A DNA stretch of 64,000 nucleotides from Prochlorococcus marinus CUG1438 (GTDB lineage Bacteria > Cyanobacteriota > Cyanobacteriia > PCC-6307 > Cyanobiaceae): the NCBI GenBank assembly GCA_017644325.1, contig JAEPLS010000002.1, positions 310,001-374,000 on the forward strand. The letters are read 5' to 3'. Below, one piece after another: positions 2 to 21,133 of this stretch. Position 1 is the first letter of the stretch, and the number at the start of each line of letters is the position of its first letter. The position numbers were made by a program, and so were the translations under genes. The notes under the pieces were generated by a model. That model saw nothing but the letters and a program-made list of their open reading frames with translations. It was not told the DNA's origin and did no database searches.

Positions 2-313
2 CATTGTATGGAAATTCTCAAACAAAATGGCTGGGAAGTAAAAGAAACCCCTAATACAGGAGATCAAGGGGTTGACTTAATTGCGTCAATAAATGATTTG
101 AGAATATGTATTCAATGCAAAGATCATGAAAAAGCTATTGGAAATAAAGCAGTTCAGGAAATTTCAGCTGGTAAATTATTTTGGAAAGGCACACATGCAA
201 TAATTGTTTCAAAATCTGGCTTTACAAAGTCCGCTCATCAACTAGCACAATCAAATAAAGTGGAACTAATAAATGAATATCAATTAAAAGATTTAAAAAA
301 GTTTATTTTTTAA
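2..313 (+). CDS. Mrr-like restriction endonuclease domain protein (5' partial)
   Basis: The protein reads as the C-terminal part of a PD-(D/E)xK nuclease of the Mrr_cat type. Counting from the ATG at base 8, GDQGVD supplies the acidic residue (D23) and IQCK supplies the Q-x-K pair (Q36, K38), followed by a helix and a final strand (AIIVS). The frame stays open upstream of that ATG (His-Cys codons at 2-7), and this family usually has a Cys-containing helix just before that point, so the gene probably starts outside the window. It may be a restriction or DNA-repair nuclease; no methylase is visible beside it. Confidence 0.7.
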   Translation, partial: HCMEILKQNGWEVKETPNTGDQGVDLIASINDLRICIQCKDHEKAIGNKAVQEISAGKLFWKGTHAIIVSKSGFTKSAHQLAQSNKVELINEYQLKDLKKFIF

Positions 314-10046: not shown

Positions 10047-10832
10047 TTATTTGCGAAGATTAGGAATTAAAAGGGACGCAACACAAATAACGCTAATTGC
10101 AGGTCCAGGCGAAAGATTGAAGACTATAGAGAGAATAAATCCAAGAAGTGAGATACATAATCCAAAAAATGAAGATCTCATCATTGCAATTCTTAAACTA
10201 TGAGCCTTATTTAGCCCTAACAAAGTGGGCGTGGAAAGAAGAGCAATTACAAGAATTACTCCCACTGCTGACATTGAACTAACAATTACTAATGCCGTTG
10301 TAAAACTCAAAGCAAGATTTAATAAAGAAACGTTTATACCGCTCGCGGATGCACCTTCTGGATCTAATCCAACATAAACAACCTTTTCATATCCAAAAGT
10401 CATTAAAAATATAAATACCAAAAAAGAAATTATTGTTCTAAGTAAATCTCCAAAATTTGCTGTCAATAAATCGCCAAATAATACTGCCTCCAAATCAATC
10501 CTTATTCCGAGTAAAGGGATTATAAGGACCCCAAATCCAAGCATTCCAGCGAGAATAGTATTCATAACTGCTTCATAATTTTCACTTTTTCTATTAGTTA
10601 AACTTTCCGCAATTACTGAGCCCAGAAGACCACTTATAACACCACCAATTGAGGGGTGAATTCCAAGCGCTAATGCGAGAGCAAGTCCAGGCAACACACA
10701 ATGAGAGATTAAATTAACTTGTAATAATCTCTTATGAGTGATTAATACAGTTCCCATAGCTGGGCATAAAATCCCGGAGAATATAGTTATTATTAATGGA
10801 ACCAGCCACCAGTTGTTATTAATAAAAGACAT
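10047..10832 (-). CDS. znuB: Zinc ABC transporter permease
   Basis: A 261-residue ABC-3 family permease with about eight helices, including the family-typical GTVLITHKRLLQVNLISHCVLPGLALALALG near the N-terminus and VGVILVIALLSTPTLLGL later. With ZnuC and ZnuA it imports Zn(II), or possibly Mn(II), across the inner membrane. It starts 17 bp from the divergent zur gene and lies downstream of znuC on the same strand, with zur in between on the opposite strand. Confidence 0.85.
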   Translation of the reverse strand: MSFINNNWWLVPLIITIFSGILCPAMGTVLITHKRLLQVNLISHCVLPGLALALALGIHPSIGGVISGLLGSVIAESLTNRKSENYEAVMNTILAGMLGFGVLIIPLLGIRIDLEAVLFGDLLTANFGDLLRTIISFLVFIFLMTFGYEKVVYVGLDPEGASASGINVSLLNLALSFTTALVIVSSMSAVGVILVIALLSTPTLLGLNKAHSLRIAMMRSSFFGLCISLLGFILSIVFNLSPGPAISVICVASLLIPNLRK

Positions 10833-10849
10833 TATTCGAATGATTCGGT

Positions 10850-11284
10850 ATGATCAAAAATACGGGACAAAAAAAGATTTCGGAAACAATGGTAACTAAG
10901 TCTGACATTACCAAAAGACAAGAACAACTTCTTGAAGAACTTAATAAATGCGAGGATGAATTGACTGGTCAAGAGTTGCATAGACAATTGATAGAAAGTG
11001 GAAAGGCTATGGGACTGACGACTGTTTACAGGAATCTTCAAGTTCTGATAAAGCATGGCTTAATACGTTCTAGACATCTCCCAACTGGAGAGGTTCTGTA
11101 CACTCCCGTAGATAGAGATATTCATCATTTGACCTGTGTTCAATGTGGTGAGACATCAAAAATGGAAGGATGCCCGGTAAAAGATATTCATACACCCAAA
11201 ACAAATCCAAAGAAATTCCAATTGTTGTTTCATACTCTCGAATATTTCGGGCTTTGCCAAAACTGTTATCAAGCTCAGAATTAA
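10850..11284 (+). CDS. zur: Fur-family zinc regulator
   Basis: A 144-residue Fur-family repressor: winged helix with the recognition part LTTVYRNLQVLIKHGLIRS, then the dimer domain with HHLTCVQCGE and FGLCQNCYQ, the two CxxC pairs of the structural zinc site. Its position inside the znu locus supports Zur rather than Fur or PerR. The ATG at 10850 is used; an internal ATG at 10889 is also possible. When zinc is bound it would repress znuA through the palindrome at 12170. Confidence 0.8.
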   Translation: MIKNTGQKKISETMVTKSDITKRQEQLLEELNKCEDELTGQELHRQLIESGKAMGLTTVYRNLQVLIKHGLIRSRHLPTGEVLYTPVDRDIHHLTCVQCGETSKMEGCPVKDIHTPKTNPKKFQLLFHTLEYFGLCQNCYQAQN

Positions 11285-11297
11285 AAAGGAACATTCT

Positions 11298-12068
11298 CTA
11301 ATCACAGAAATTATTTTCGTTTATAGAGCTAATGTTTATTGCCTCTAATTTATCTTGTATTTGGTCAGGTCTACCAACTGCCAAAACACTTTTATCAAGA
11401 ACGATTACTTGATCATAGTTTTTTAGAGAATCGCCCCAATCATGGCTACTTACGAGCAAAGAAAGTCCGGCATCGGCAAGTTGACGAACAATTTTAAGAA
11501 AATCCTCCTTTGCAGGTGGGTCCAAAGCTGCACAAGGTTCATCTAAAAGAAATATTTTTGCTGGGGACATAAGAGTTTTTGCTAATAGAGCTCTTTGCTG
11601 CTGTCCTCCTGAAAGAGAATCAAGTCTTCTATTAGCCAAATTAGCAATTCCTACTCTTTGCATTGTCGCTTCTAATTCACAACATTTATTAATCCAAGAA
11701 TTAGGATATTCTAGAAGAGCCTTGATTTGAAAGGGGTTATTACTTCTTGATTTTGAATACTTTATTTGACCAAGAGATACCAATTTTTCAACTGTAATGG
11801 GAAACTTCCAATTCATAGAACTTCTTTGAGGCATAAGTGCCACTAGAGCTCTAGATCTATATAAATTTTCACCATCAATTTTTATTTCGCCTTTATCTGG
11901 AGTATTTTGTCCTTGCAATATCCTCAAAAGGGTTGATTTTCCGGCACCATTTGGACCTACTAGCGCTGTTAGAGTTCCAGGTTTAATCTCAACCGATACC
12001 TTACTTAAAGCTGGCTTACTTTTTTCTGTGTATGCAAATGTTAAATTTTCAGCGACTAAAGTAGCCAT
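11298..12068 (-). CDS. znuC: Zinc ABC transporter ATPase
   Basis: A 256-residue ABC ATPase with Walker A GPNGAGKST (38-46), signature LSGGQQQRALLAKTL and Walker B IFLLDEPCAALD, and the switch His in VSSHDWGD. It energises ZnuB. It is longer than minimal ABC proteins because of a loop after the Q-loop (NNPFQIKALLEYPNSWINK). A perfect 7-bp inverted repeat (12109-12131) overlaps its likely promoter. The stop at 11298 is 13 bp past the zur stop on the other strand. Confidence 0.85.
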   Translation of the reverse strand: MATLVAENLTFAYTEKSKPALSKVSVEIKPGTLTALVGPNGAGKSTLLRILQGQNTPDKGEIKIDGENLYRSRALVALMPQRSSMNWKFPITVEKLVSLGQIKYSKSRSNNPFQIKALLEYPNSWINKCCELEATMQRVGIANLANRRLDSLSGGQQQRALLAKTLMSPAKIFLLDEPCAALDPPAKEDFLKIVRQLADAGLSLLVSSHDWGDSLKNYDQVIVLDKSVLAVGRPDQIQDKLEAINISSINENNFCD

Positions 12069-12154: not shown

Positions 12155-12186
12155 TTGTCAGATGTAATGAAAATGATTATCATTTT
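12155..12186 (+). promoter_or_regulatory. znuA promoter with overlapping Zur/Fur box
   Basis: A -35 TTGTCA (12155-12160), a 17-bp spacer and a -10 TATCAT (12178-12183) form a good promoter. A perfect palindrome AAAATGATtATCATTTT (12170-12186) covers the -10 box. It has the 1-base centre and core ATGATnATCAT typical of Fur-family operators. Metal-loaded Zur would exclude RNA polymerase. The leader to the ATG at 12208 would be only about 20 nt. Confidence 0.75.
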
Positions 12187-12207
12187 TAAGTGTTTAATAA
12201 TTTTTTT

Positions 12208-13722
12208 ATGTCAATTTTTAAAAGACTTTTATCAAATAAAACATGTTCAAGTAAGTCAATTATTAAAAATTCCGTAATCGCTGGAACGATTATATTTTCT
12301 GGTTTTGGGCAGGATGTAATGGCTAAAGGGAAGTCATACGTAGCAGTAGAACCACTAGTTTGTGATTTAGTTAAATCTATTGCGTTACCATCTGACGAAG
12401 TTACATGCTTAGTAGATAGAAAACAGGATGTTCATGACTTAAAGATCAATCCAAGACAAGCTCAATTACTAAATAGCGCAGACAAAGTATTCACTCTTGG
12501 CAAAGAAATGACTCCAAGTATGAGAAATTGGGAAAGTAAAAAGAATACTATTGTTGTAGGTGTTAGTGCAATAGACGTAGATGATCATTCTGATCATGAA
12601 GGTCACGATGACCACTCAGACCATGGCGGACATGACGATCATGCTGAACATTCAGCTAAGGTAGATGATCATTCTGATCATGGAGGTCATGATGATCATG
12701 CTGAGGGTGCTTTCGAATGGGCAGGTAAATTCCAGCTTTCTAAGGGTTCATACAAATGGTCATTTGAAAAAGTCGATGGCGAATATGCAGATCCTGCAAT
12801 GAAGATGGTGATTCTCAAATCTAATGACATAGAAGGGTCTGAAGATTTAGCCAAAGAATTATTAGGATCTAAAGACTCAATAAGCAGAAAAAATGATGGA
12901 ACTTTGATAGCAAGTAATAAAGCTTTTGTTCTTAACTTTGATCAAAGAAAAGAAAGTACTGTTTTTAACGTGGATATCAAAGAAGATGGTGAATATATAT
13001 TTTTTACTGAACACATGCCTTTTGAGTTTGAAGCAACTCAACACTTTTTTAAAGACGTTTCAAATAGTGATGTAGAACCAATAGCACAAGTTCCAGACGA
13101 AGGAGAGGGGCATCACCATCATGACCATGGAGGTCTAGATCCACATGTATGGCATGATCCACATAACATCATAAAAATGGGAGATCTTATAAGCAAAAGT
13201 TTAAAGAAAGATATTTCAGTTTTTAATAGAGGTGACAGAAAACTAATTAATGAAAGATTCGAAAAAGCTGATTCTCTCTTAGAAGGCTTAGATAGTTGGA
13301 TCGTCGAACAAGTAAGCTCTATTCCTGAGGAAAACAGAGTAATTGTCTCTAAACACAAAGCAATGGAATACTACGGGGATGCATTTGGTTTTGAAACCAT
13401 TAGTTTACTTGACTTTCTTGGAGACTCCTCAAGCTTAAGGCCAGACAACATAAGTTCTACTTTAAAAATGTTAGATGAAGAGAAAGTTCAGGCGATATTT
13501 CCTGAACAAATTCCAGCATCTAAGTTATTAAGGAACTTAAGTAGACAAAGTTCAGTTCCTTTAGCTTCTAATCAAATATTCGTTGATGGATTGATGATGG
13601 ATGGTAATACGGTTTCAGTAGCCGTTCACAACACTTGTACAATTGTTGATTCATTAGGTGGAAGCTGTGATAAAGAATCTGGCTCCAATCTTGAGTCTGA
13701 ATGGTATAAACTTTCAGATTAA
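12208..13722 (+). CDS. znuA: Zinc-binding ABC substrate-binding protein with inserted module
   Basis: Numbered from the GTG at 12190 (510 aa); I prefer the ATG at 12208. A signal region is followed by the ZnuA N-lobe with H82 in QDVHDLKINP. Then comes a His/Asp-rich repeat (132-172, DHSDHGGHDD units), then an extra domain (173-290) beginning FEWAGKFQLSKGSYKW. A second His cluster (308-313) leads into DPHVWHDP, and the C-lobe carries VSKHK and IFPEQ. A usual ZnuA is about 300 residues, so the insert and His loops explain the size. It captures periplasmic zinc for ZnuBC. The insert matches one in the next gene. Confidence 0.85.
   Translation: MSIFKRLLSNKTCSSKSIIKNSVIAGTIIFSGFGQDVMAKGKSYVAVEPLVCDLVKSIALPSDEVTCLVDRKQDVHDLKINPRQAQLLNSADKVFTLGKEMTPSMRNWESKKNTIVVGVSAIDVDDHSDHEGHDDHSDHGGHDDHAEHSAKVDDHSDHGGHDDHAEGAFEWAGKFQLSKGSYKWSFEKVDGEYADPAMKMVILKSNDIEGSEDLAKELLGSKDSISRKNDGTLIASNKAFVLNFDQRKESTVFNVDIKEDGEYIFFTEHMPFEFEATQHFFKDVSNSDVEPIAQVPDEGEGHHHHDHGGLDPHVWHDPHNIIKMGDLISKSLKKDISVFNRGDRKLINERFEKADSLLEGLDSWIVEQVSSIPEENRVIVSKHKAMEYYGDAFGFETISLLDFLGDSSSLRPDNISSTLKMLDEEKVQAIFPEQIPASKLLRNLSRQSSVPLASNQIFVDGLMMDGNTVSVAVHNTCTIVDSLGGSCDKESGSNLESEWYKLSD
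12577..12682 (+). repeat. Direct repeat coding for the His-rich segment of ZnuA
   Basis: A 22-bp identical stretch occurs at 12577-12598 and again at 12661-12682. It encodes the DHSDH units of the metal-binding loop. The near-identity at DNA level suggests recent duplication within the gene and potential length variation by slippage. Confidence 0.7.
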
Positions 13723-13799
13723 ATTTTTCTAATAAAAACGGTTTTCATTTCTTATTATTACTATTATTAAACTATTGTTTATTTGGTAAAAATCATTAA

Positions 13800-15149
13800 A
13801 TGAGCATCAAAGATAAAGTTCCAGTTACTATTCTCACTGGATTTCTAGGTTCAGGGAAAACTACTTTACTTAATAGAATACTAAGTGAAGAGCACGGGAA
13901 AAGAATAGCCGTAATTGAGAATGAATACGGTGAAGTAGGGATAGATCAAGGGCTCGTAATTAATGCCGATGAAGAAGTGTTTGAGATGTCAAACGGGTGC
14001 ATTTGTTGTACTGTTCGCGGTGATTTGATAAGAGTCCTTGGCAACCTTATGAAAAGAAGAGATAAGTTTGACTATGTTTTAGTAGAAACGACCGGATTAG
14101 CAGATCCTGGGCCAGTCGCGCAGACATTTTTCATGGATGAAGAAATTAGTTCTGAATTTACTCTTGATGGAATTGTAACTTTAGTTGATGCTGCTCATAT
14201 TGATCAGCAGCTAGGAAGAAGTGATGAAAGTTCAGAACAAGTTGCGTTTGCAGATGTTCTTGTCCTTAATAAAACTGATTTAGTCTCTGATGATGCACTA
14301 GATACTCTTGAATCGAGATTGAGAGATATGAACCGAATGACTCGAATCATTAGAGCCGAGAATGCCAAAGTACCAATCGAAACAGTCCTAAATCTAAGTG
14401 CATTTGATCTCGATCAAATCCTTAAACGCAGACCAACATTTCTTGAACCAGAATATCCTTTTGAATGGACAGGTGTTTACGACCTTGCTGCAGGTAAATA
14501 TGAATTAATGCTAGAAGAAGGTCCCGATCCAGAAATGTCCCTAGTAGCTCTCATTAACCAAGGTGAGAGTGAGGAAGAACTTAAAGATGGTGCTGAATCC
14601 TCCGTAAGACTTTATGCAGAAAATGCTAATACTTTGGAGCCTGGAAATACTGTCCCATATGGAGAACATGTAAATCTAAAATTGGAGGATAAAGGGAATA
14701 AATCCTTCATCCTTAACATAGAAAAGCCAACAAAAATAGGTTTATATACACAGCACACTGCTGAAGAATTTAATATGAAAGTCATTAAAAGTGACGAAAA
14801 TAAAGAGATTCCATTTAATACTGAAAGGTTCTGGCAAGCCGAGCACGAGCACGATGATGAAGTAACGTCCATTGCAATTGAACGATTTGGAGATGTTGAT
14901 CCAGAAAAACTTAATACTTGGTTGGGCAGACTTCTTTCTGAAAAAGGGGTGGATATATTTAGAACTAAAGGTTTCATTAGCTACTCAGGCAACCCACAGA
15001 GAATAGTTTTCCAAGGGGTACATATGTTATTTACAGCGCAACCTGATAAGGAATGGGGTAACGAACCTCGTAGAAACCAACTTGTTTTTATAGGTAGAAA
15101 TTTGGACGAGAAAGAGATGAAAGAAGGTTTTGAAAAATGCCTGATATAG
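13800..15149 (+). CDS. COG0523 zinc-chaperone GTPase with inserted module
   Basis: A 449-residue CobW/COG0523 G3E GTPase. Walker A is GFLGSGKTT (14-22), the metal motif GCICC has C67, C69 and C70, and NKTD (157-160) is the base-recognition motif. The C-terminal CobW_C part includes RTKGFISYSG and FQGVHMLF. Between them lies an extra domain (221-335) starting FEWTGVYDLAAGKYEL, homologous to the insert in ZnuA, then a HEHDDE metal-ligand-like stretch. It probably delivers zinc to target enzymes under zinc shortage. It follows znuA by 77 bp. Confidence 0.85.
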   Translation: MSIKDKVPVTILTGFLGSGKTTLLNRILSEEHGKRIAVIENEYGEVGIDQGLVINADEEVFEMSNGCICCTVRGDLIRVLGNLMKRRDKFDYVLVETTGLADPGPVAQTFFMDEEISSEFTLDGIVTLVDAAHIDQQLGRSDESSEQVAFADVLVLNKTDLVSDDALDTLESRLRDMNRMTRIIRAENAKVPIETVLNLSAFDLDQILKRRPTFLEPEYPFEWTGVYDLAAGKYELMLEEGPDPEMSLVALINQGESEEELKDGAESSVRLYAENANTLEPGNTVPYGEHVNLKLEDKGNKSFILNIEKPTKIGLYTQHTAEEFNMKVIKSDENKEIPFNTERFWQAEHEHDDEVTSIAIERFGDVDPEKLNTWLGRLLSEKGVDIFRTKGFISYSGNPQRIVFQGVHMLFTAQPDKEWGNEPRRNQLVFIGRNLDEKEMKEGFEKCLI

Positions 15150-16195
15150 AATCATTTAGCCCAAGAGGCATGTTCCACGAGGGATGGACAGCTGAAGTTA
15201 ATGATTATGCCATAGTTTGTGGTTGGGCTACTAAAGGAAAGTTATTCATTGTTGGGGATGTAGCAGGAGGTATTTTTGCCTTTGAAGGAGATACTGGGAA
15301 AATTATTTGGAAAAAAGAAAATACACACTCTGCTGGTCTATTAGCAATGTCCATTCATCCAGAAGGAGAGATTTTTGCAACTTCCGGTCAAGATGGAAAT
15401 ATTCAAATATATAATTGTCACGAAGGTAAAGTAATTAAAACTCTCGATCTTGGCAAGGCTTGGGTAGAGCATCTTAAGTGGTCAAATGATGGCTTATTTC
15501 TTGCAGCAGCTTCTTCAAAAAAAGTATATGTTTTTAATGAAATTGGGGAAGAAAAATGGGTATCAGATGATCATCCAAGCACAGTGAGTGCAATAAAATG
15601 GTCAAATAATAATGAGTTAGCTACAGCCTGCTACGGGAGAGTAACATTCTTTGACATAGTAAATAATAAAACGAATCAAAAGCTCGAGTGGCAAGGATCA
15701 TTAGTCTCAATGGAATTAAGTCCTGATGGTGATATAGTCGCTTGCGGGAGTCAAGACAATTCAGTTCATTTTTGGAGAAGATCAACCGGAATGGATGCTG
15801 AAATGACAGGATACCCAGGAAAACCCAGTCACCTTTCTTTTGACGATAGTGGGAAATTACTGGCAACTAGTGGCAGTGAAAGAATTACAGTGTGGAGCTT
15901 TATAGGTGACGGTCCCGAGGGGACTATGCCTGGAGAGCTATGGCACCATACCGAACCTATTTCTAGCCTAGCCTTTTCAAATAAAGGCATGCTTGTAGCT
16001 TCCGGATCTAGAGATGGTTCTGTTGTCGCAAGTTTTCTAAAAAAAGACGGTAATGGTGACCCAGTTGGGGCTGCATTCGCAGGCGATTTAGTGGGTGCAC
16101 TTTCGTGGAGACCTGATGATTGTGCACTAGCTGCAGTTAACGCAAAAGGTGTAGTAAATGTTTGGAAATTTAAAGTTCGTACTAATTCTTTTTGA
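15137..16195 (+). CDS. WD40-repeat protein of the zinc operon
   Basis: A 352-residue protein made of about seven WD40 blades. Each repeat has the SIHPEGEIFATSGQDGNIQIY type pattern, for example MELSPDGDIVACGSQDNSVHFW and LAFSNKGMLVASGSRDGSVV. There is no signal peptide, so it should be a cytoplasmic beta-propeller scaffold. It overlaps the GTPase by 13 nt, implying translational coupling, and may hold the chaperone and its client together. No enzymatic motif is seen. Confidence 0.8.
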   Translation: MPDIESFSPRGMFHEGWTAEVNDYAIVCGWATKGKLFIVGDVAGGIFAFEGDTGKIIWKKENTHSAGLLAMSIHPEGEIFATSGQDGNIQIYNCHEGKVIKTLDLGKAWVEHLKWSNDGLFLAAASSKKVYVFNEIGEEKWVSDDHPSTVSAIKWSNNNELATACYGRVTFFDIVNNKTNQKLEWQGSLVSMELSPDGDIVACGSQDNSVHFWRRSTGMDAEMTGYPGKPSHLSFDDSGKLLATSGSERITVWSFIGDGPEGTMPGELWHHTEPISSLAFSNKGMLVASGSRDGSVVASFLKKDGNGDPVGAAFAGDLVGALSWRPDDCALAAVNAKGVVNVWKFKVRTNSF

Positions 16196-17875: not shown

Positions 17876-19321
17876 ATGGTGAAAAATATGTTTTCAAGTT
17901 ATCAGCCTAAAAATAGTTTCGATGAATACTTTAAGGATAATGTCAACTCTGCGAGAGAAATATTGATTCCACTTCTTTCCTCTTTAGATAATATGGGTCT
18001 TGAAGAATTAAACAGGAATCATTCTGCCGCAAAAAAATTATTACTAAGGCATGGTGCAACTTTTAGATTAAACGATACTGGTCTAAAAGGTACTGAGAGA
18101 ATATTACCTTTTGATCCACTTCCTAGAATAATTAGTAAAGATGATTGGGTTACCTTAGAAAAAGGACTTAAACAAAGGCTTGAGGCAATTGATTTATTCC
18201 TAGATGATATTTATAATTCTCAAAAAATAATTAATGATGGAATAATTCCAAGAGAATTAATAGAGAGTTCAGAAGGTTGGAGACCTCAGATGATAGGTTT
18301 CAAACCTCCACTAAATAAATGGTGTCAAATTTCAGGACTTGATTTAATAAGGGACAGAAATGGAGATTGGCATGTTTTAGAAGATAATTTAAGGTGCCCT
18401 TCTGGGGTTGCCTATTTTTTAGAAAATAGACTAGTTATGAAAAATATTTTTCCTAATCTTTTCTCTGGAAGAATAGTAAAACCAATTGATGAATATCCAT
18501 CATATCTTTTAAAAACTCTTCAAGAACTCGCTGTTTGGACGGATACTCCCAAGATAGTTCTACTAACTCCAGGAATTTTTAATAGTGCTTATTTTGAACA
18601 TAGTTATTTAGCTCAAGAAATGGGTATACAACTAGTACAGGGTCATGACTTAGTTTGTAATGATGATTATGTATATTTAAAAACTACCTCCGGATTAAAA
18701 AGAGTAGATGTCATTTACAGACGAATTGATGATGATTTCTTAGATCCTCTTAATTTCAGAAAAGATTCCTGCCTTGGTGTTAGCGGATTACTTGATGTTT
18801 TCAAGGCAGGTCATGTTGCTTTAGCAAATGCACCTGGGACTGGAATAGCAGATGACAAAATGATTTATTCTTTTGTTCCAAAAATGATTAAATATTATCT
18901 TAATGAAGAAATTATTATTAAAAATGTAGAAACGTATATTTGCCATTACCAAAAGGATCGGGAATACGTTCTAGAAAATTTATCAAAACTTGTTGTTAAG
19001 TCTGTCGCTGAAGCTGGAGGATATGGAATGTTAATTGGTCCTCACTCAACTACAAATGAAATAGATGAATTCTCTAATAAAATCAAAAAAAATCCAAGAA
19101 ATTTCATAGCCCAACCAACATTAGAATTATCTACAGTGCCATCTTTATGTGATGGAGAACTGTATCCATGTCATGTTGATTTAAGACCATATATTTTGAG
19201 AGGGAAAGATTCATGGGTTAGCCCAGGTGGGCTTACGAGAGTAGCGTTAAAAAAAGGATCATTAGTCGTCAATTCATCTCAAGGTGGAGGATGCAAAGAT
19301 ACATGGGTTGTAGGAAAATAA
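17876..19321 (+). CDS. Circularly permuted ATP-grasp protein
   Basis: A 481-residue member of the circularly permuted ATP-grasp group (DUF404/DUF407). Recognisable parts are FPFDPLPRII-like ILPFDPLPRIIS, GLDLIRDRNGDWHVLEDNLRCPSG with the Asn-Arg core, and the late KSVAEAGGYGML and AQPTLELSTVPS blocks. Such enzymes are predicted to ligate amino groups to carboxylates. The start ATG at 17876 has an alternative at 17888. The alpha-E gene follows after 1 bp and the transglutaminase gene after that. Confidence 0.85.
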   Translation: MVKNMFSSYQPKNSFDEYFKDNVNSAREILIPLLSSLDNMGLEELNRNHSAAKKLLLRHGATFRLNDTGLKGTERILPFDPLPRIISKDDWVTLEKGLKQRLEAIDLFLDDIYNSQKIINDGIIPRELIESSEGWRPQMIGFKPPLNKWCQISGLDLIRDRNGDWHVLEDNLRCPSGVAYFLENRLVMKNIFPNLFSGRIVKPIDEYPSYLLKTLQELAVWTDTPKIVLLTPGIFNSAYFEHSYLAQEMGIQLVQGHDLVCNDDYVYLKTTSGLKRVDVIYRRIDDDFLDPLNFRKDSCLGVSGLLDVFKAGHVALANAPGTGIADDKMIYSFVPKMIKYYLNEEIIIKNVETYICHYQKDREYVLENLSKLVVKSVAEAGGYGMLIGPHSTTNEIDEFSNKIKKNPRNFIAQPTLELSTVPSLCDGELYPCHVDLRPYILRGKDSWVSPGGLTRVALKKGSLVVNSSQGGGCKDTWVVGK

Positions 19322-19322
19322 T

Positions 19323-20264
19323 ATGCTTTTAAGTCGTGTAGCAGAATCTCTTTACTGGATAAATCGTTATTTAGAACGTGCAGAAAACATATCTCGTTTC
19401 GTGGAAGTAAGTGAAGCAATGTCATTAGATTGTCCACCAGGAAGTGCAGAACCCTGGCTCCCTTTAATAGATGCTTCAAGTGATAGAGAATCTTTTGATA
19501 AAAGATTCCCAGAGAAAAAACCTGATGACGTTATTAATTTTTTAATAAGAGATCGTTTAAATCCAAACAGCATTATTTCTTGCATTCAAATGGCAAGAGA
19601 AAATGCAAGACAAATCAGAGACGTCATGACCACGGAAATGTGGGAACAAATTAATATTTTATATTGGAATATGCAAGAAGGTGAAGCAATATGGAACAAA
19701 CCAAGGCAAGAACAATTAAGTGAAATAAGGAGGGAATGTCAGCTATTTTATGGAATTACAGATGCGACTCTAAGCAAAGACCTTGCCTGGAGATTTAGCA
19801 TTCTTGGAAGATTAATTGAGAGAGCAGACAAAACATCAAGAATTTTAGATGTTAAATATTATTTACTTCTTCCCAGTTTAGATGAACTTGGAGGAGTACT
19901 TGATGAGCTACAATGGATTGCTCTTTTACGCTCAGCTGGAGCCTATCAAATGTTTAGGAAGGCAGTGCAAAATTCTATAAAGCCTAATTCAGTTGCGAGA
20001 TTTCTTTTACTTGATCCAATTTTTCCGAGATCAGTAAGATACTGCCTTGATGGAATAAGCAATACACTTAGAATGATAGATACCTCTCCATCTACAGAAA
20101 ATCCTTCAGAATTAGAGTGCATGAGAGGTTTGCTTCAAGCAAAGTGGAGTTATATCAGAATTGAAGATATAATCAATCATGGTTTACATGAAGCAATTGA
20201 TTCATTGCAAATGGATTTGAATAAATTAAATGATCTCATTCAAGAAAAATATTTTATTAATTAA
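19323..20264 (+). CDS. Alpha-E domain protein (DUF403)
   Basis: A 313-residue, all-helical protein opening with LSRVAESLYWINRYLERAENISRFVEV, the standard alpha-E N-terminus, and later SIISCIQMARENARQIRDVMTTEMWEQIN. The name reflects a conserved Glu-rich helical fold of unknown chemistry that always travels with the circularly permuted ATP-grasp protein. It is 1 bp after that gene and 11 bp before the transglutaminase-like gene. Confidence 0.85.
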   Translation: MLLSRVAESLYWINRYLERAENISRFVEVSEAMSLDCPPGSAEPWLPLIDASSDRESFDKRFPEKKPDDVINFLIRDRLNPNSIISCIQMARENARQIRDVMTTEMWEQINILYWNMQEGEAIWNKPRQEQLSEIRRECQLFYGITDATLSKDLAWRFSILGRLIERADKTSRILDVKYYLLLPSLDELGGVLDELQWIALLRSAGAYQMFRKAVQNSIKPNSVARFLLLDPIFPRSVRYCLDGISNTLRMIDTSPSTENPSELECMRGLLQAKWSYIRIEDIINHGLHEAIDSLQMDLNKLNDLIQEKYFIN

Positions 20265-20275
20265 AAAGTTTATTA

Positions 20276-21133
20276 ATGAGAATTAAATACATTCACAAAC
20301 TTGAATATAAATACGAAGAACCTATTCAATTAGGCGAGCATAGATTATGTATAAAGCCAAGGTCAAATGGATTCCAAAAGCTAAAGAATTTTGAATTAAA
20401 AATAACACCAGAACCAGAAATTATCTATCCATTACTTGCTGCCAGCGGAGAAGAGATTAATAGAATCAGATTCAGTGGATTTACGGATAATTTAATTATT
20501 GAATCAATTAGCGAAGTTGAAACTATTAAACATCCAAACATTATTGAAGGGGTTAAAAATAGAGATTTAACATTACCTTTTTGTAGAAGCATTATTAACA
20601 GAGATTTACAGGGAGCATTAGAGGGGTGGATGCCCAATGGACAGCATGATCCCTCTGCCGTAGAACTTGCCCAAGAAGCTTTAGCAGGAAGCATTAATAA
20701 CGTATTATCATTTACCTACCAGCTAATAGAGATTATTCAAGATCGGGTCAAATATACCAAAAGGCATACTGGTCCAGCATGGCCGGCTAGCAGAACACTT
20801 AGAGAACGTATTGGTTCATGCAGAGATTTAGCAATGCTAATGGTTGAATCTTGTAGGTCTATTGGAATTCCAAGTAGGTTTGTAAGTGGTTATCATTTTG
20901 AAGAGCCTTTACCCACTGAGTTAGATTTACATGCTTGGGCTGAGTTATATATTCCGGGGGCTGGTTGGAGAGGTTTTGATCCAAGCGGAAAAGGATTAAT
21001 AGACGAAAGATATTTAACATTAGTAGCCTCTTCCAAATCTAATTTAACTTCTGTAATTACAGGAAACTTCATAGGAAAAAATAATTTAGAAAATACTTTA
21101 TCCTGGGAGATCAAACCCCTTAAAATTCAATAA
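20276..21133 (+). CDS. Transglutaminase-like cysteine peptidase-fold protein
   Basis: A 285-residue protein with the bacterial transglutaminase N-terminal beta domain (IKYIHKLEYKYEEPIQLGEHRLCIKPR) and a papain-like core. The catalytic triad is readable: C182 in RIGSCRDLAM, H219 in DLHAWAELY and D235 in GFDPSGKG. It could cut or form amide bonds made by the ATP-grasp partner. Third gene of the cluster; 11 bp after the alpha-E gene. Confidence 0.85.
   Translation: MRIKYIHKLEYKYEEPIQLGEHRLCIKPRSNGFQKLKNFELKITPEPEIIYPLLAASGEEINRIRFSGFTDNLIIESISEVETIKHPNIIEGVKNRDLTLPFCRSIINRDLQGALEGWMPNGQHDPSAVELAQEALAGSINNVLSFTYQLIEIIQDRVKYTKRHTGPAWPASRTLRERIGSCRDLAMLMVESCRSIGIPSRFVSGYHFEEPLPTELDLHAWAELYIPGAGWRGFDPSGKGLIDERYLTLVASSKSNLTSVITGNFIGKNNLENTLSWEIKPLKIQ

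Follow-up and report, generated by a model that had tools for sequence, protein, structure and literature searches.

The DNA analysed here is a 64,000-nucleotide stretch of Prochlorococcus marinus CUG1438 (assembly GCA_017644325.1, contig JAEPLS010000002.1, positions 310,001 to 374,000 of the forward strand), referred to throughout as the window. It carries a zinc locus in which the substrate-binding protein ZnuA and the product of the adjacent gene, a COG0523 GTPase, each contain an insert of about 110-125 residues, and the two are homologous copies of a single domain. The domain is unnamed, with no convincing sequence family match in Pfam, NCBIfam or the PDB, and is probably a reusable metal-handling part. 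The new element is an accessory metal-receptor domain that is novel in sequence and common to a cytosolic metallochaperone-type GTPase, whereas the operon logic surrounding it is already known.

An earlier note made from the sequence had proposed the shared insert on the basis of a series of paired motifs, all of which are found in the two proteins (FEWAG/FEWTG, LSKGSY/LAAGKY, DPAMKMV/DPEMSLV, FNVDI/FILNI and TEHMPFEF/TQHTAEEF), as are the DHSDHGGHDD and HHHHDHGG loops it named in ZnuA and the HEHDDE motif in the GTPase. The proposed location stands and the limits are adjusted: the ZnuA segment, given as residues 175-289 counted from a GTG at 12190, becomes residues ~169-294 counted from the ATG at 12208, and the GTPase segment extends over residues ~220-342, slightly longer than the proposed 221-331.

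Full-length BLASTP of ZnuA against the GTPase gives an E-value of 7e-5 as a single comparison, and hhalign between a ZnuA-insert profile and a GTPase-insert profile returns a probability of 95.7 and an E-value of 8.5e-9. The GTPase-only profile consists of six rows (the window GTPase, one Synechococcus-type sequence, two from other genomes of the cyanobacterial phylum, Pantoea and Paraburkholderia) with no ZnuA row among them; searched against the complete genome (1.63 Mb) with E up to 10, it finds two places, the GTPase itself and the neighbouring ZnuA (E 1.3e-11). The ZnuA-only profile finds the GTPase in the same genome at E 1.1e-4 and otherwise ZnuA alone. The profile match between the two segments, which the earlier note had chosen in advance as decisive, is therefore significant in both directions. 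Compared with 10,000 shuffled inserts, the real match scores 41.9 bits against 11.7 bits for the best shuffled sequence when the GTPase-type profile is used; the corresponding values for the ZnuA-only profile and the real GTPase are 19.8 and 16.8 bits, a margin so narrow that the weight of the homology rests on the GTPase-type profile. The window ZnuA insert used as a single query finds a match at E up to 1 in 33 of 60 relatives, and in genomes of the same genus the second, weaker match is typically a GTPase-size frame located ~1.7 kb downstream. Chance or motif convergence could draw on the low identity between the two window copies (21%) and on the lead of no more than 3 bits that the real match holds over a shuffled sequence under the ZnuA-only profile, but it is hardly credible in view of the genome-wide and hhalign E-values, the corresponding structural elements described below and the intermediate sequences from plasmid searches that link the copies.

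AlphaFold2 models were generated for full ZnuA and the full GTPase from shallow Prochlorococcus-type alignments. The inserts are modelled well in both, with block-mean predicted local distance difference test (pLDDT) values of 71-93 for GTPase residues 221-340 and 77-92 for ZnuA residues 171-270. Eight main elements (strands, one helix, then strands) occur in the same order and register in the two inserts (Table 1), such that the predicted secondary structures agree and the insert is mostly beta in both proteins, as had been anticipated; each model also contains additional short strands without a counterpart in the other. ‘Beta-sandwich’ is a plausible description of the modelled insert. Structure searches gave lists filled by the GTPase or substrate-binding protein part, or no convincing match. 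Six residues (Glu, Gly, Asp, His, Glu and Phe) are invariant in all 19 diverse copies aligned, which fall, in this order, in (F/W)E(W), L-x-x-G, DP-x-M and, for the last three, H-x-x-x-E-F. The invariant Asp precedes strand 3 in the models and the His and Glu of H-x-x-x-E-F follow the last main strand, so the Asp and His/Glu ends may be close in space if the strands pair antiparallel.

The copies occupy different settings in the two host proteins. In the GTPase, the domain sits between the G domain and CobW_C. Escherichia coli YjiA (1nij, 4ixm) has the same two host domains and aligns to window GTPase residues 7-214 and 352-444, but its linker between them is ~6 residues long, compared with ~137 residues in the window protein. 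The ZnuA copy is placed within the His/Asp-rich loop. The ZnuA proteins of four relatives (genomes G018, G024, G027 and G033; 365-397 amino acids) have a continuous His-rich loop without the domain, and the adjoining GTPase retains its copy; together with YjiA, these proteins bear out the earlier statement that the domain is dispensable to the core of either family. Two tandem copies are present in the ZnuA of G023 and G032, and among 79 distinct ZnuA frames, which come from the best 80 of 272 loci, were picked for having the domain and include cut frames, 56 have one copy and 23 have two. On a tree of the ZnuA core (23 rows, with the window and locus L092 left out), the copy numbers 0, 1 and 2 need four changes and the domain-less ZnuAs form one group. 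The ZnuA frame at L189 (genome G269) is 873 amino acids long with two copies; it spans a run of unknown residues and could have arisen by misassembly or by tandem duplication of the gene.

Some COG0523 protein is present in all 24 domain-less genomes of the window’s family that were searched with the window GTPase. The best such protein is 42-48% identical in 23 of these genomes and 60% identical, over the G domain, in G285. The low identity indicates that most genomes of the family either have this type of GTPase complete with its domain or do not have it at all. The G285 relative (L197, L221) is without the domain and keeps a similar flanking His motif. It also seems truncated in CobW_C and runs into a WD40-like tail, possibly a GTPase-WD40 fusion or a decayed pair.

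Searches for a known family used the same 19 diverse copies, as well as single sequences, and neither approach gave a convincing match. The best Pfam E-value is 0.014, and each Pfam family is matched by only one or two of the 19; CBM_35 (best 0.017, 2 of 19), PA14 (0.1, 1 of 19) and DUF2911 were judged to be chance matches. The NCBIfam model NF005913 (‘hypothetical protein’, 442 positions) reaches 3.4e-4 with 2 of 19 copies, yet this partial match scores 19.4 bits against a cut-off of 382, and a recheck with 9 of the 19 members or close equivalents confined it to two haloarchaeal members. The ZinT family, named YodA in Pfam, is absent from the matches at E up to 1 in both Pfam and NCBIfam. A PDB sequence profile search with the insert gives a best E-value of 0.89, and searches of the literature (titles, abstract openings and selected passages) returned no description of the shared domain.

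Within the window’s family, the domain is found in 118 of 271 genomes that are at least 90% complete. It is found in 82 of the 87 genomes of the genus; by hand count, 9 of these have a single match, 66 have two and 7 have three, and the matching frames of the nine single-match genomes are GTPase-sized. A sample of the phylum yields the domain in 31 of 386 genomes, and the carriers examined there are ZnuA or COG0523 proteins. Genome-contig relatives are limited to the best 80 of 272, all Prochlorococcus or Synechococcaceae by title, so that phyla are under-sampled in this set. ZnuA-size and GTPase-size domain frames usually start ~1.7 kb apart; their starts are ~624 kb apart in G424 (C1:355056, C1:979302), ~874 kb apart in G502 (C1:33971, C1:907614) and 6.8 kb apart in G458 (C14:17187, C14:24003). 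Each of four diverse queries detects the domain in 11 of 72,556 plasmid records, and a Prochlorococcus ZnuA copy detects it in 6. No domain relative was found in viral contigs, or in phages searched with the ZnuA copy only. Similar inserts are presumably also present in ZnuA of marine alphaproteobacteria.

The earlier note had suggested looking for a third carrier and a stand-alone form, and the plasmid searches found both. A plasmid tblastn search with the G048 GTPase copy as query retrieves a haloarchaeal substrate-binding protein and an Alicyclobacillus protein at 1e-13 each. Metal substrate-binding carriers occur in the haloarchaea Halorubrum, Haloarcula halophila, Haloarcula rara and Halorientalis; in Halorubrum and Haloarcula halophila, two COG0523-type genes without the domain lie upstream of the domain-bearing gene. 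Stand-alone forms of 183-208 amino acids, with a lipobox-like start (by eye) and His-rich ends, occur in Halosolutus, Natrinema and Halomontanus. The Natrinema versiforme gene (L145:4872-5423) is located directly behind ureC, the urease gamma subunit gene, ureG, ureD, ureE and ureF, a neighbourhood that hints at nickel. The Alicyclobacillus carrier (L182:4782-5693) is a 303-residue membrane-type protein with the domain inside a His-rich stretch, a NicO-like H-x4-D-H motif (by eye), and genes for a divalent metal transporter and a metal-sensitive regulator nearby; neither Pfam nor NCBIfam gives it a match at E up to 0.1, and it is therefore called only ‘permease-like’.

Domain-bearing COG0523 GTPases are found in Pantoea agglomerans and Paraburkholderia, each followed by a WD40 gene; the annotated Paraburkholderia frame is without the start of the G domain, and Pantoea soli has a broken domain copy. 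Outside the window’s family, domain-bearing GTPases of the cyanobacterial phylum were examined in G048, G060, G083, G085 and G095, and a NicO nickel-transport gene adjoins the GTPase in three of the five (G048, G083 and G095). A WD40 gene stands behind the domain-bearing GTPase in L180 (Pfam), L181 (record annotation) and L051 (by eye), and the WD40 protein is a likely functional partner of this GTPase.

A tree of 22 copies places the ten GTPase-borne copies on one side (support 98/91) and, on the other, twelve extracytoplasmic copies from ZnuA, haloarchaeal substrate-binding, stand-alone and permease-like proteins. The window ZnuA copy is 30-32% identical to haloarchaeal substrate-binding protein copies and the window GTPase copy is 37% identical to that of the G048 GTPase. 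A recent duplication of the domain between the two operon neighbours would fit the adjacency of znuA and the GTPase gene; however, the window copies are less similar to each other than to these distant relatives and are separated by the tree, and a recent local duplication is thus ruled out as a working explanation and retains very little probability. The simplest history suggested by these sequences, with thin sampling of phyla, is an ancient and independent acquisition of the domain by each of the two protein families.

The domain is read here, with middling confidence, as an accessory module for the capture or hand-off of divalent metal located beside His-rich stretches, where metal binding is what we infer. 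In all 22 copies counted, at least two His residues follow the domain within 60 residues, and 11 of the 12 extracytoplasmic copies have at least three in the 45 residues that precede it, so the proximity to His-rich stretches first seen in the window pair holds in the copies counted. Carrier neighbourhoods contain znu-type, COG0523-type, NicO, urease, metal-transporter and metal-regulator genes. The invariant Asp, together with the His and Glu of H-x-x-x-E-F, would form a metal or metal-gated site. The ZnuA copy, placed inside a flexible His-rich loop, may collect zinc when it is scarce and deliver it to the high-affinity cleft, acting by analogy like the ZinT-like domain plus His loop of AdcA. 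The GTPase copy, placed between the nucleotide domain and CobW_C by a His motif, might help metal loading or release with GTP hydrolysis, which is pure conjecture. Both genes in the window would probably be derepressed together via Zur under zinc scarcity, and in some carriers the cognate metal may be nickel or cobalt, as NicO or urease neighbours suggest. Metal transfer by the domain, one of the roles offered in the earlier note, is possible. A far-reaching extension, which we regard as quite improbable, would make the domain a universal metal-exchange cassette: the same domain outside (substrate-binding protein loop, permease loops, free lipoproteins) and inside (GTPase) would form a like-with-like chain of sites along which the substrate-binding protein, the permease and the metallochaperone pass Zn, Ni or Co in bacteria and archaea alike, and the ZnuA copy number of 0, 1 or 2 would be tuned to zinc scarcity.

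Several observations weigh against metal capture or hand-off. The full-protein models are poor (mean pLDDT 50.8 and 61.5) and their domain placement is unreliable. In the 19-copy alignment, Pantoea, Paraburkholderia, G083, G060 and G048 depart from the DP-x-M motif, and the invariant Asp, His and Glu might have a structural role. Among the ten GTPase copies, the 45 residues leading into the domain hold just 0-1 His, and the His motif that follows the GTPase copy is independent of the domain, as the G285 relative demonstrates. Metal-related neighbours are partly to be expected, most hosts being metal proteins; moreover, no NicO gene was seen near the GTPase in G060 and G085, both near contig ends, and two of the three stand-alone genes (Halosolutus and Halomontanus) have no obvious metal neighbours. 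One ZnuA clade does without the domain. The metal of the window substrate-binding protein is also unsettled in print: in the relevant passages of a review, a cluster annotated as ZnuA is almost absent from Prochlorococcus, and another that is widespread has an unclear Zn/Mn specificity (PMC8786288).

Two other functions have to be set beside metal handling. The domain might instead be a beta domain that binds a non-metal ligand (carbohydrate, peptidoglycan or a protein) or has a purely structural role, such as that of a rigid spacer, and would then be found on metal proteins incidentally; single members do match beta-sandwich families below threshold (the CBM_35 and PA14 values above). These values are near chance level, however, and the presence of the domain both in the cytosol and outside, the mostly metal-related nature of the known carriers and the invariance of Asp, His and Glu make this alternative possible though doubtful. 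The earlier note had also proposed a docking module linking the periplasmic and the cytoplasmic protein. In a broader form of this proposal, the copies would bind a common partner (e.g. ZnuB loops on either side of the membrane) or each other and would thereby couple uptake to delivery, which suits the single operon seen in most genus carriers and the ~1.7 kb between the starts of the domain matches in most listed genomes having both. Docking is nevertheless unlikely: the window copies are on opposite sides of the membrane and on different sides of the supported tree split, a GTPase copy can stand beside a ZnuA without the domain and the reverse is seen in haloarchaea, stand-alone and permease-loop carriers exist, and in G424 and G502 the ZnuA-size and GTPase-size matches are hundreds of kilobases apart. 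A direct bridge between ZnuA and the GTPase is disfavoured by the different compartments, the occurrence of each copy without the other and the tree split, and was rejected as the main reading in favour of metal capture or hand-off.

The closest known arrangement is AdcA of Streptococcus pneumoniae, in which a ZnuA-like domain is followed by a C-terminal ZinT-like domain, and the extra domain and the His loop jointly aid zinc recruitment at low zinc, as described in passages of PMC7858048. AdcA resembles the window ZnuA: both are zinc substrate-binding proteins of cluster A-I in which a His-rich loop is accompanied by an additional globular domain rich in strands, and in both the core can do without that domain. 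In AdcA this domain forms a lipocalin-like barrel, has a three-His site and is attached C-terminally (PMC7858048), while the window domain is inserted inside the His loop, matches no ZinT family in Pfam at E up to 1 and is shared with GTPases of the cytosol. The GTPase is a candidate member of COG0523 subfamily 5 by its neighbours, a WD40 gene (Pfam) and znuB/znuC (by eye): passages of PMC2770081 state that prokaryotic members of this subfamily cluster with WD40-repeat genes and znuABC and that several are predicted downstream of Zur sites. These passages call the C-terminal region highly variable and describe no inserted domain. In Synechococcus WH8102, all six genes of synw0968-0973, including znuB, znuC and znuA, rise in a zur mutant, which the authors take as suggesting Zur repression, with the regulation of synw0973 called unclear (PMC9337993, in part). 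That cluster is like the window locus in having divergent znuC and znuA plus uncharacterised genes (synw0972, synw0973 and synw0968), and the passages concerned name no domain.

The zinc locus of the window, assembled from sequence and Pfam matches, comprises znuB, a Fur/Zur-type regulator gene, znuC, znuA, the COG0523 GTPase gene and a WD40 gene (Table 1). Window ZnuA scores 143.7 bits against a Pfam ZnuA cut-off of 29, and its AlphaFold model aligns with AdcA-N and other cluster A-I structures (Z 13.7 to 7jj8, root-mean-square deviation 2.6, 113 aligned). The GTPase has the cobW G domain, the GCxCC motif (GCICC at 66-70, invariant in 31 rows) and CobW_C. A signal-like stretch is present at the ZnuA N-terminus and none is seen at that of the GTPase (both by eye). 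The nearest named relatives of the locus among the best 80 of 272 are Prochlorococcus, and window ZnuA is 98% identical to the ZnuA of L083, a Prochlorococcus record. The palindrome between znuC and znuA is the sole window site with at most one mismatch to the Zur box, and its position matches that of the Zur box of Synechococcus WH8102 in the relevant part of PMC9337993; looser matches in the window are no commoner than in shuffled sequence. Elsewhere in the window, three consecutive open reading frames at 17876-21133 resemble an ATP-grasp-type, alpha-E-type and transglutaminase-type set by eye.

Table 1. Features of the zinc locus (window positions) and matching elements of the two modelled inserts (residue numbers)
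Feature	Position	Strand	Basis and remarks
znuB permease gene	10047..10832	-	named by eye, sequence and position
Fur/Zur-family regulator gene	10850..11284	+	named by eye, sequence
znuC ATPase gene, divergent from znuA	11298..12068	-	named by eye, sequence and position
Zur-box-like palindrome between znuC and znuA	12168..12182	+	at most 1 mismatch, position
znuA, cluster A-I substrate-binding protein	12208..13722	+	Pfam ZnuA 9.8e-42; alternative GTG start 12190
His/Asp-rich loop of ZnuA, ahead of domain	12580..12702	+	sequence; 12 His in 45 pre-domain residues
Shared domain, ZnuA copy, residues ~169-294 from ATG	12712..13089	+	profiles, AlphaFold, alignment; invariant Asp195, His269, Glu273
HHHHDHGG cluster, after ZnuA domain copy	13111..13134	+	sequence
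COG0523 (CobW-type) G3E GTPase, 449 amino acids	13800..15149	+	Pfam cobW 2.4e-61, CobW_C 3.6e-25; YjiA 6.3e-62
Shared domain, GTPase copy, residues 220-342	14457..14825	+	profiles, AlphaFold, alignment; invariant Asp243, His319, Glu323
HEHDDE motif, after GTPase domain copy	14844..14861	+	sequence; invariant across 31 rows of GTPase alignment
WD40 beta-propeller gene	15137..16195	+	Pfam WD40; overlaps 3' end of GTPase gene
Strand 1	GTPase 221-229 / ZnuA 171-177		AlphaFold
Strand 2	GTPase 232-238 / ZnuA 180-187		AlphaFold
Strand 3	GTPase 245-252 / ZnuA 197-204		AlphaFold
Helix	GTPase 258-272 / ZnuA 209-219		AlphaFold
Strand after helix	GTPase 277-279 / ZnuA 224-227		AlphaFold
Strand	GTPase 290-294 / ZnuA 239-243		AlphaFold
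Strand	GTPase 301-307 / ZnuA 250-257		AlphaFold
Last main strand	GTPase 311-318 / ZnuA 261-267		AlphaFold

The hand-off of scarce metals from receptor to client is a long-standing question. In abundant ocean phototrophs, the domain marks both a zinc receptor of the periplasm and a metallochaperone-type GTPase of the cytosol; in haloarchaea, it occurs as a free, lipoprotein-like form. It offers a small, expressible object with three invariant candidate ligands and natural variants with 0, 1 and 2 copies, and its signature can be used for annotating hypothetical metal proteins.

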